Part shown: positions 44,848 to 48,236 of the stretch, in pieces
Numbering within the stretch: position 1 is the first letter of the stretch
Layout: the number at the start of each line of letters is the position of its first letter
Assembly (NCBI RefSeq): GCF_012027395.1
Contig: NZ_SNUJ01000001.1
Location: 62,001-126,000, forward strand
Direction of reading: 5' to 3'
DNA from: Thermococcus sp. LS1
Lineage (GTDB): Archaea; Methanobacteriota_B; Thermococci; Thermococcales; Thermococcaceae
Length of the DNA: 64,000 nt
The notes under the pieces: model-generated
The model's input: only the letters and a program-made list of their open reading frames with translations
Told to the model about the DNA's origin: nothing
Database searches by the model: none
Made by a program: the position numbers and the translations under genes

Positions 44848-45522
44848 ATGGTGAAGGTGAGGTTTTTGGGCCACGCTGCCTTCGAGATCGTCGGAAGCAA
44901 GAGGATTCTGATAGATCCCTTCCTGACCGGCAATCCTGCGGCTGCCGCGAGGCCAGAAGAGCTTGAAGCCGACCTGATTTTGATAACCCACGCCCACGGT
45001 GATCACATTGGTGACGCCGTGGGGATAGCCAAAAGAACTGGCGCCAAGATAGTCGCCATGTACGACATAGCCAATTACCTCGTCGAGAACAACCCCGGTA
45101 TAACAACTATCGGAATGAACTATGGTCCGACCGAGGTTGATGGGGTCAAGATAGTCCAGGTTCCAGCCTGGCACTCCAGCAGCGACGGCAAGTACAGCAT
45201 CGGAAACGCGGCTGGATACGTAATCGAGCTTGATGGAGTCAAGATCTATCACGCCGGCGACACCTTCGTGTTCAAGGACATGGAGCTCCTCAACGAACTC
45301 TACGGGCCGATTGACCTGGCTTTACTCCCGATTGGAGGCCACTTCACGATGGGACCGAGGGAGGCCGCAAAGGCTGTGGAGCTTCTTAAGCCAAGGAAGG
45401 TCGTCCCTATGCACTACAACACCTGGCCGCCGATCGCCGCGGACCCGGAAGAGTTCAAGAGGCTCGTCGGGGACAAGGCGGAGGTCATCATCCTCAAGCC
45501 GGGCGAGAGCCTGGAACTTTGA
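44848..45522 (+). CDS. UPF0173 metallo-beta-lactamase-fold hydrolase
   Basis: 224 residues. The metal motif is THAHGDHIGD (about residue 47), with further ligands in VPAWHSS, YHAGDT and MHYNTWPP. This family (YtkL/UPF0173) has uncharacterised hydrolase activity. The start ATG 44848 follows a perfect GGAGGTGATG; the longer frame from 44818 lies upstream of that site. Confidence 0.88.
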   Translation: MVKVRFLGHAAFEIVGSKRILIDPFLTGNPAAAARPEELEADLILITHAHGDHIGDAVGIAKRTGAKIVAMYDIANYLVENNPGITTIGMNYGPTEVDGVKIVQVPAWHSSSDGKYSIGNAAGYVIELDGVKIYHAGDTFVFKDMELLNELYGPIDLALLPIGGHFTMGPREAAKAVELLKPRKVVPMHYNTWPPIAADPEEFKRLVGDKAEVIILKPGESLEL

Positions 45523-45567
45523 AAAACCTTTTAAGGAGCTTTCCCTACTCTTTTTTCAGGTGATAAA

Positions 45568-46566
45568 ATGGTTAAAAGGGCCATTGCCTTGGTGCTCATC
45601 CTGTTCATGGTTTCATCCCTCACACTGCCCCTCTCCGCCGCTCAGGAGGAGACCCCAAAATACGACCTGATAATCGTGAGGAACGATGATTTGATAGATT
45701 ACATCGTGGCGTGGCCCTACGCCAAGATGCTCGGTGTCCCTATTCTGCCCGTTGATCCGAAGGAACTCGATCCTGGAACGCTGGCCCAGCTCCAGTCCTA
45801 CGCTCAGTTCGGCTGGAACCATGTACTTATCATAGGAGACTCTCAGGCCGTAAGCAACGAGGTTCAGGACGAACTGCTGAACATAGGCTTTGTGGTCGAA
45901 AGGATAGGTGGAGCCGTTAGAACGGAAACCGCCGCAAAACTGGCCCTCCATTTCTACCCCAACGGCGCGGAGACCGTTGTTGTCGCAAGCTCCAGTGATT
46001 ACGGTTCGGCTCTGGCGGCGGCAAGATGGGCAATGAACTATGGCTATCCTCTGCTCCTCACACAGGAAGACGCTCTGTCAGACTCAACGGCCAACGCAAT
46101 ACAGAAACTCAACCCAGATCTTGTCATACTGATCGGGGCAGGAATGTCAAAGGATGTCCAGAAGAAGATAGAGTCCCTGGGTTACGAGACCTACTGGGTG
46201 AAGGAGAACATAGAGATAACCGTGCCCAAACCTGAAGAAGGAACCAATTGGGTCATGGTTATCGCCGCGGTGATGCTGTCTCTGGCAGTCGCAGTACCGG
46301 TTTCGCTCTACTACGCCAAGAAGCGCTGGGCGGCAAACAGGGTGCCTATCGAGGTGCTCACCGAAAAAGAGCGCATAGTTGTCAAGGCAATCCTTGAGAA
46401 GGGTGGAGTTGTCAAGCAGGAAGAGCTTCCGGAGCTTACCGGTTACTCGAGACCAACGATAAGCAGAATCATCCAGGAACTCGAGAAGAAGCAACTCGTG
46501 ACAAGAGAGAAGGTCGGGAAGACGTTCATCGTCAAGCTGACGAAGGAGATAATAATCAGAGACTAA
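45568..46566 (+). CDS. membrane-spanning cell-wall-binding-like sensor with cytoplasmic winged helix
   Basis: 332 residues. A signal sequence (1-24) leads to an extracytoplasmic region (about 30-212) with three repeats resembling cell-wall-binding repeat 2 (PF04122): LIIVRNDD...GVPILPVDP, HVLIIGDSQAVSNEV...IGGAVRTETA, TVVVASSSDYGSALAA...LLLTQED, then VILIGAGMSKDV. One TM helix (about 228-250) follows, and residues 264-330 form a winged-helix domain (KERIVVKAILEKGGVVKQEE, TGYSRPTISRIIQELEKKQL) of the MarR/IclR-like kind. The order implies a one-piece transmembrane transcription regulator. Targets unknown. ATG follows AGGTGATAAA. Confidence 0.8.
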   Translation: MVKRAIALVLILFMVSSLTLPLSAAQEETPKYDLIIVRNDDLIDYIVAWPYAKMLGVPILPVDPKELDPGTLAQLQSYAQFGWNHVLIIGDSQAVSNEVQDELLNIGFVVERIGGAVRTETAAKLALHFYPNGAETVVVASSSDYGSALAAARWAMNYGYPLLLTQEDALSDSTANAIQKLNPDLVILIGAGMSKDVQKKIESLGYETYWVKENIEITVPKPEEGTNWVMVIAAVMLSLAVAVPVSLYYAKKRWAANRVPIEVLTEKERIVVKAILEKGGVVKQEELPELTGYSRPTISRIIQELEKKQLVTREKVGKTFIVKLTKEIIIRD

Positions 46567-46639: not shown

Positions 46640-46786
46640 TCAGGCCTTCCTGAAGAGATGGCCGTGCGCTTTGTTGATGTGCCTCACGTAGTCCTTACTC
46701 CTGCGGAAGACCATCCCGCACCTGGGGCAGCGGAAGTAGAGCTCTCCGTCCCTGTCCTTGAACTTGATGGCCTTCAGCACCGCCAT
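46640..46786 (-). CDS. 48-residue C2H2-type zinc-finger protein
   Basis: Too short for usual ORF cut-offs but convincing: ATG 46786 after GGAGG, TGA at 46642-46640. The protein holds one classical C2H2 finger, [22 protein letters not shown] (positions about 20-41), and basic ends. Such mini zinc fingers are common in Thermococcales genomes. A TATA-like element (complement of about 46826-46834) is upstream. Probable DNA- or RNA-binding protein of unknown role; adjacent to the tnpB element on the opposite strand. Confidence 0.75.
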
Positions 46787-46944
46787 CTCCTCCACCCCCG
46801 TCGCTGGTAGGAGATTGAATTTTTAAGCTTTACCTTTTTCTTGGGCCTCGTCGTTCACGGTGGGGATGTAGTAAACAACCCATGGAGCCTTTTAGCAAGA
46901 AAGCAACACTCTTTTAAAGCCTAAAAATCATACCATATCTTAAG

Positions 46945-48109
46945 ATGAAGCGAACAGCAACAGTCAAACTCCAGCCCTCGAAAGAGCAGGAAAACTCCTC
47001 TTCGAGTTAGCGGACATTAGTGCTAAAGCGTGGAATAGAGTAAACTACCTCCGAAGACAAGAATACTTCCAAGGAAAACCCATAGACTTCTTGAAAACTC
47101 AAAAAGTCGTTTACGAGGAATTCAAGAAGGAAATCGGTTCTGCGACAATCCAAACAATAGCAAGGAAAAACGCCGAAGCTTGGAAGGGTTTCTTCTCGCT
47201 CGTGAGGAAGAAGAGGAATGGAGAACTCCCCTTTTGGCTTAAACCAAAACCACCGAACTACTTGAAAGAGAACGGAAAGCGTAAGCCTCTCATAGTTCTG
47301 AGGAACACTCAATACGGGTTGAGGAGAATAAACTCATCCTCAAGGGACTCGGAAAGTTCAAACACCTCAAAATTCAATTCAAGGGGAGAATTCATCTCAA
47401 GGGCAAGGAAGGGAGATTAGAGATTACCTACGACCCCGTTAAGCGTAAATGGTATGCCCGCATCAGTTACACGGTTGAGAAAAAACTAATCAAGGGTGAG
47501 TGGGTGAAGGTTCCAAGAAAACCTTTGGGTAACATTTCAGCGGGGATAGACTTGGGAGTGAACAATTTAATGGCTGTGTATGTTGAAAACGGTCAAAGTT
47601 TCTTGGTCAATGGCCGACCCTTGAAGTCAATAGCCTTTTACTGGCAGAGGAAGATTGCCAATTACCAGTCCAAACTCAATAGATCGGGAGCTAAGACGAG
47701 CAGGAAACTCAAAAGAATGCACGAAAAGGCCAAACTCCAAGCGAGGCACTACATTAACACGGCTGTAAGACAAACCGTCGAAAAACTCTATCACCTTGGT
47801 GTTTCGAGAATCGTGGTCGGCTATCCGAAGGACATATCCAGAAACTCTAAGAGAGGAAAAAGACAGAATTTTATCCTCTCCCACGTGTGGAGGTTTAATT
47901 ACGTTATTCAAAGGCTGAAGGAAGTTGCTGAAGAGTATGGTATCACTGTTGAAGTCGTTGATGAGGCTTTTACTTCTAAGCTTTGCCCTGTTTGCGGGAA
48001 GCCTCATGAAGGGGCTCGCTTTGTTCGTGGTCTTTATGCGTGTCCCGCAACGGGGTTTACCTTCAATGCTGACCTCGTTGGAGCGTTTAACATTTTGAAA
48101 AAGTGGTAA
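46945..48109 (+). pseudogene. tnpB: TnpB of an IS200/IS605-type element, two frameshifts
   Basis: The reading frame MKRTATVKLQPSKEQE from ATG 46945 breaks near 46991, continues as LLFELADISAKAWNRVNYL to about 47318, breaks again, and resumes VEENKLILKGLGKFKHL to the TAA at 48107. Restoring one A near 46991 and one base in TACGGG near 47318 gives one 388-residue TnpB. RuvC residues are still present: Asp in GIDLGVNN, Glu in VDEAFTSK and Asp in FNADLVGAFNIL. The zinc ribbon has CPVCGK, but the second pair is CPATG, one Cys short. No tnpA is present, so the element could only have moved in trans. The loss of frame predicts an inactive nuclease. Confidence 0.85.
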
Positions 48110-48236
48110 AAACGATAACCCCGAATCTGGGCGGGCTTTACGCTCAGAGGAGGGGTAATGGGGGGAAGGCCCTCCCCGAGGGGCCGAAGGTTCGCTTTAG
48201 TTTGGGCTTTAATGAGGCCCCTCAAACCTCCAGCTG
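48110..48236 (+). ncRNA. candidate omega RNA / right end of the TnpB element
   Basis: The GC-rich, highly foldable sequence directly after the tnpB stop contains short complementary blocks (GGGG...CCCC pairs around 48160-48190). TnpB guide RNAs arise from the tnpB 3' end and right transposon end, so this is where one would lie. No expression evidence; the exact ends are unknown. Confidence 0.35.

Follow-up and report, generated by a model that had tools for sequence, protein, structure and literature searches.

The locus examined here raises the question of what an archaeal protein could do that joins a CWB2 ectodomain to a winged helix-turn-helix (wHTH) through one membrane-spanning segment. 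The window, that is the whole stretch of 64,000 nucleotides of Thermococcus sp. LS1 DNA that was analysed, carries an open reading frame at 45568-46566 (+) that reads through and encodes 332 amino acids. We consider this protein to be, with good probability, a single-pass transmembrane one-component transcription regulator sensing the cell surface. This reading draws on its domains and fold, its topology, the conservation of its ectodomain, its spread through the class, the siblings of the same layout in the genome and the precedent of ArnR.

Domains, fold and predicted topology

The signal peptide was assigned to residues 1-25 (45568..45642, +), which begin with MVKR and end with LPLSAA before a Q, an S-x-A cleavage-like site. 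It is followed by two CWB2 units, unit 1 at residues 32-110 (45661..45897, +) and unit 2 at residues 111-212 (45898..46203, +), by a transmembrane (TM) helix at residues 228-248 (46249..46311, +) and by a predicted cytoplasmic wHTH of the DUF7343/MarR-like type at residues 262-325 (46351..46542, +). The Pfam family CW_binding_2 (PF04122) matched with an E-value of 1.5e-15 and 57.9 bits (cut-off 24.9), in two stretches, the best of which (residues 112-191) falls in unit 2 and the second in unit 1; unit 1 gave an additional, separate weak family match. A phmmer search against the PDB returned Cwp6 of C. difficile (E 5e-17), with an alignment spanning residues 25-194, as well as several SlpA HMW chains. 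The PILL motif is fitted by P161-L-L-L164 in unit 2 and is degenerate in unit 1 (P58-I-L-P61); P58, P161, L163 and L164 are invariant in 20 orthologues. The CWB2 units number two, whereas the C. difficile anchor has three. For the C-terminal domain, the DUF7343 winged helix (PF24034) was matched in Pfam with an E-value of 3.1e-10, above the curated cut-off, which the MarR_2 profile also exceeds.

An AlphaFold2 model built on 20 orthologues had a pLDDT of 86 and a pTM of 0.58, as expected where domains sit loosely relative to each other. It shows a beta-alpha pattern in unit 1 and one helix (residues 228-256) across the TM region. Foldseek matched this model to Cwp6, SlpA and Cwp8 (E 1e-6 to 5e-9), with an rmsd of 2.6 over 192 columns for Cwp6, while the C-terminal part resembled MarR-type regulators and TFE winged helices. 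Hydropathy revealed hydrophobic segments at residues 5-23 and 229-247 only. The segment C-terminal to the TM helix holds three to five K/R, with a net charge of +2 to +3, in 20/20 orthologues, and the preceding segment is less positive in nearly all of them. Because a signal peptide is combined with a positive flank on the C-terminal side, the prediction supports an external CWB2 part and an internal winged helix. The order signal-CWB2-TM-wHTH proposed in the initial annotation is agreed upon by Pfam, the PDB sequence search, AlphaFold2/Foldseek and the charge topology; its winged helix is borne out by the two profiles over cut-off and the fold match, and its topology by the positive flank, no inversion being seen.

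Conservation, spread and the case for a sensor

Mean identity among the 20 orthologues was highest in the wHTH (0.86), with the CWB2 units close behind (0.77 and 0.72) and far above the TM helix (0.54), the linkers and the signal peptide (0.38), which is variable yet always present. Conservation of CWB2 near the level of the wHTH points to a specific job of the ectodomain outside the cell. Two stretches are the most conserved, SRPTISRIIQ (helix region) and REKVGKTF (wing), both basic and near-invariant in Thermococcales. Winged helices can serve protein contacts as well, and the domain could be conceived as a module that contacts proteins or lies close to the membrane and does not bind DNA; this is very improbable in view of these two stretches and of the MarR families matched over cut-off.

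The protein might also be a structural tether and not a sensor, CWB2 holding the envelope and the winged helix holding DNA, so that the chromosome or a locus would be fixed to the surface. One protein does span the wall side and the DNA, and the remark in the initial annotation that CWB2 is known for anchoring, not sensing, agrees with the literature that we searched, in which the fold is described only as an anchor. However, in the literature on C. difficile all three units are needed for anchoring, meet through their PILL motifs and bind PSII, and the regulator has two in place of the three tandem units of a CWB2 wall anchor. A wHTH of the MarR/TrmB type and sibling proteins that share the layout but vary in their ectodomains fit sensors better, and one clade has lost the protein and is viable, so that we regard a tether as improbable. 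We know of no secondary wall polymer in Thermococcales. Since a two-unit regulator alone cannot build a three-fold module, oligomerisation or a partner is likely for the sensor that we favour.

Full-length orthologues were present in 79 of 94 Thermococcales genomes, and near-full-length matches (E 1e-60 to 1e-72) in 18 of 21 genomes from other families of the class. The survey of Thermococcales thus found the same architecture in nearly all, and it also extends beyond the order, with relatives in Methanofastidiosia, Theionarchaea and other class members among the named genomes scanned. Two Guaymas MAGs labelled Thermoproteota hold relatives at 26% identity and nearly full length, both with signal peptide, TM helix and DUF7343; one of them has a CWB2 score under the cut-off and the other has none, and the CWB2 fold would there follow from the full-length alignment. 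PF04122 is below cut-off or absent in some far relatives such as L218, L235 and L236. Judged from these sequence comparisons, the CWB2-TM-wHTH architecture is old and class-wide.

Genomic surroundings and candidate targets

A gene for an MBL-fold hydrolase (UPF0173-like; Lactamase_B_3, Pfam PF13483, 8e-30) is located at 44848..45522 (+), 45 nt upstream of the regulator. It adjoins the regulator in genera g1, g3, g5 and g6 while other neighbours vary, and in family f3, on the Methanofastidiosia side, the regulator directly follows an MBL-fold gene of another MBL family (L109 4177-5076, L112 998-1918). In g2 the two genes are not adjacent and the MBL gene lies near the genes of the CWB2-stalk proteins described below, with one gene between. 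The pairing is suggestive only. A BRE GAAAAACC and a TATA-like TTTTAAGG read by consensus at 45521..45536 (+), right where the preceding gene ends, are the probable core promoter of the regulator itself; most g1 and g5 genomes have them conserved in front of the orthologue. An obligatory operon of MBL gene and regulator was rejected, because this conserved BRE/TATA stands just past the MBL stop codon and the genes are unlinked in g2.

On the other side, a 50-aa single C2H2 zinc-finger protein is encoded just downstream at window positions 46640-46795 (-), convergent with the regulator. An IS605-type TnpB at 46800-48200 separates the regulator from its usual downstream neighbour; it comprises a 201-aa ORF at 47504-48109 with OrfB and TNB domains and a further frame at 47091-47420, looks split, and has no counterpart there in relatives, L035 for example. 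In families f2 and f3 aEF-1beta comes after the regulator.

Elsewhere in the genome, three secreted proteins, each about 380-400 aa long, combine a CWB2 module with a helical stalk (L003, G000:C2:533356; L004/L064, C1:2150-3295; L005, C3:66318). Their family extends through Thermococcales with two to three members per genome (relatives L065-L093), and our literature searches found no published description of a secreted CWB2-stalk family. A stalk protein model from AlphaFold2 (pTM 0.83) contains two CWB2 units and a helical bundle and matched SlpA/Cwp6 in Foldseek; the two-unit CWB2 module is shared with the regulator (hhalign 97%, E 4e-11).

The three stalk genes share a promoter element, ACGATTTCGT-GAAAAAAG-CTTAAATA, in which ACGATTTCGT directly precedes the BRE/TATA GAAAAAAGCTTAAATA; in 29/30 stalk loci the element is placed 33-37 bp before the start. 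Searched as a 26-mer with at most three mismatches, it has exactly three sites in this genome, all at its stalk genes, and is present in 62/94 genomes overall, the matches in genomes other than this one being only in part paired with a gene; a reversed control pattern gave 0 matches in the 94 genomes. Imperfectly palindromic, the 10-bp element has halves that sometimes co-vary (ATGATTTCAT) and sometimes do not (ACGATTTCAT), so its dyad symmetry is suggestive. The stalk element was not found in the window, including in front of the regulator, and there is thus no sign of autoregulation through it. In some g5 genomes the same element also stands about 130 bp before a DUF257 (PF03192) gene (L194:1475-1500, L195:2107-2132). 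EarA was rejected as the reader of the stalk promoters, since the motif published for it in Thermococcales, A(C/G)(C/G)TACA(T/C), differs. Genus g2 has both the regulator and stalk genes, but the element was not found there; in g2 and some others that lack it, the stalk upstream regions hold repeated GAAACG/AAACG hexamers (L094, L095, L096; L180, L182), which could be sites of another regulator.

Among genomes at least 90% complete, both regulator and stalk were present in 61, the regulator only in 4, a stalk only in 1 and neither in 9 (Fisher 5e-8), and no CWB2 protein was found in any of ten regulator-less genomes tested. Co-absence was nevertheless rejected as strong independent evidence, because in a tree of one gene, spermidine synthase, most regulator-less genomes form one clade, which means one or two events; G037, nested in this clade (support 0.97-0.98), carries both regulator and stalk. 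Several Thermococcus genomes and families f2-f4 have the regulator and no stalk protein at all, so that the stalks cannot be the universal target of the regulator and it must have other work. G077 and G075 keep stalks and element while the regulator was not detected; as the upstream MBL gene is missing there too, the absence may be an assembly gap. The asymmetry, a stalk rarely without regulator and the regulator often without stalk, fits stalks that depend on the regulator, but goes back to one or two evolutionary events.

For a surface-sensing regulator, these elements can be joined in a mechanism in which the paired CWB2 module would bind an envelope component, be it an S-layer protein, a surface glycan or a partner CWB2 protein. 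Such binding, or oligomerisation via the PILL faces, would alter how the winged helices pair inside the cell; their dimer would then bind promoters from its place in the membrane, in the manner of ArnR. In its most specific form, the targets would be the two to three secreted CWB2-stalk genes with their one dedicated promoter element: the CWB2 receptor would control them via ACGATTTCGT and sense the products of its own regulon, or a shared ligand, by CWB2-CWB2 contact. We put this last step forward tentatively and hold it to be rather unlikely. If true, one protein would close a feedback loop on surface composition, by which the cell adjusts a surface protein by watching its own surface.

A different target step, whose probability comes near to an even chance, keeps the same envelope-responsive regulator and leaves the surface-sensing statement untouched: the stalk genes would be read by another factor through their element, and the regulator would control other genes, possibly that of the MBL hydrolase. 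This accords with the persistence of the regulator without stalks and of the element without the regulator in G077/G075, and with the MBL neighbour that recurs in four genera amid differing neighbours and, as another type, in f3. Its MBL version has to face the MBL gene being kept in the regulator-less clade, where it evidently does not need the regulator, the separated pair in g2 and the predicted promoter that the regulator has of its own.

Whichever its targets, the conserved CWB2-wHTH membrane protein probably, on its sequence features, senses the cell surface directly. It provides a conserved candidate surface receptor in which a domain thought to be anchor-only is placed at the position of a sensor, together with a short list of candidate targets with one promoter element. 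To our knowledge there is no archaeal species in which sensing of the state of the S-layer is understood. Thermococcus kodakarensis and Pyrococcus furiosus are genetically tractable for testing, if the orthologue is present.

Comparison with known systems

The initial annotation had supposed that archaea usually lack such designs, which is contradicted by a survey that found transmembrane transcription regulators (TTRs) in 367/404 archaeal species, about 4 per genome (PMC10269533), by ArnR/ArnR1 (PMC6396743) and by this genome itself. At least three further proteins here (L055, L057 and L059) have the order signal-ectodomain-TM-wHTH; like the regulator they carry a signal peptide, an ectodomain, a TM helix and a winged helix of the same DUF7343 type, whereas their ectodomains, as read from sequence alone, are beta-type and not CWB2. 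L057 and L059, which lie 2.4 kb from each other, are closely related paralogues. The layout family is already known and the unusual part is CWB2 as ectodomain; literature searches on DUF7343 and on an archaeal CWB2 regulator returned nothing on point. What is new is the CWB2 ectodomain as a putative sensor, its class-wide age and a candidate regulon.

TTRs, of the ToxR and TcpP type in bacteria and with many archaeal members, resemble the regulator in combining a DNA-binding domain with at least one TM segment and in being single-pass (PMC10269533). The regulator shows a DNA-binding profile and a TM helix in the same protein, with the DNA-binding domain predicted to be cytoplasmic. In ToxR-type proteins the DNA-binding domain is N-terminal, whereas the regulator carries its wHTH C-terminally, behind a signal peptide and a CWB2 ectodomain. 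ArnR and ArnR1 of Sulfolobus acidocaldarius, which act on surface-structure genes, are likewise archaeal, membrane-bound and one-component; they differ by an N-terminal HTH and by HAMP and sensor domains near the membrane, with no CWB2 described (PMC6396743). The ArnR-family order (N-terminal HTH, HAMP, sensor, TM) is thus distinct from the order SP-CWB2-TM-wHTH. Finally, Cwp6, Cwp8 and SlpA of C. difficile share with the regulator the CWB2 fold (PF04122) and export, and their PILL motif has PILL-like counterparts in the regulator, but they have no wHTH and their three CWB2 units make up a trimer that binds the PSII polymer, where the archaeal regulator joins two units to a TM helix and a wHTH.
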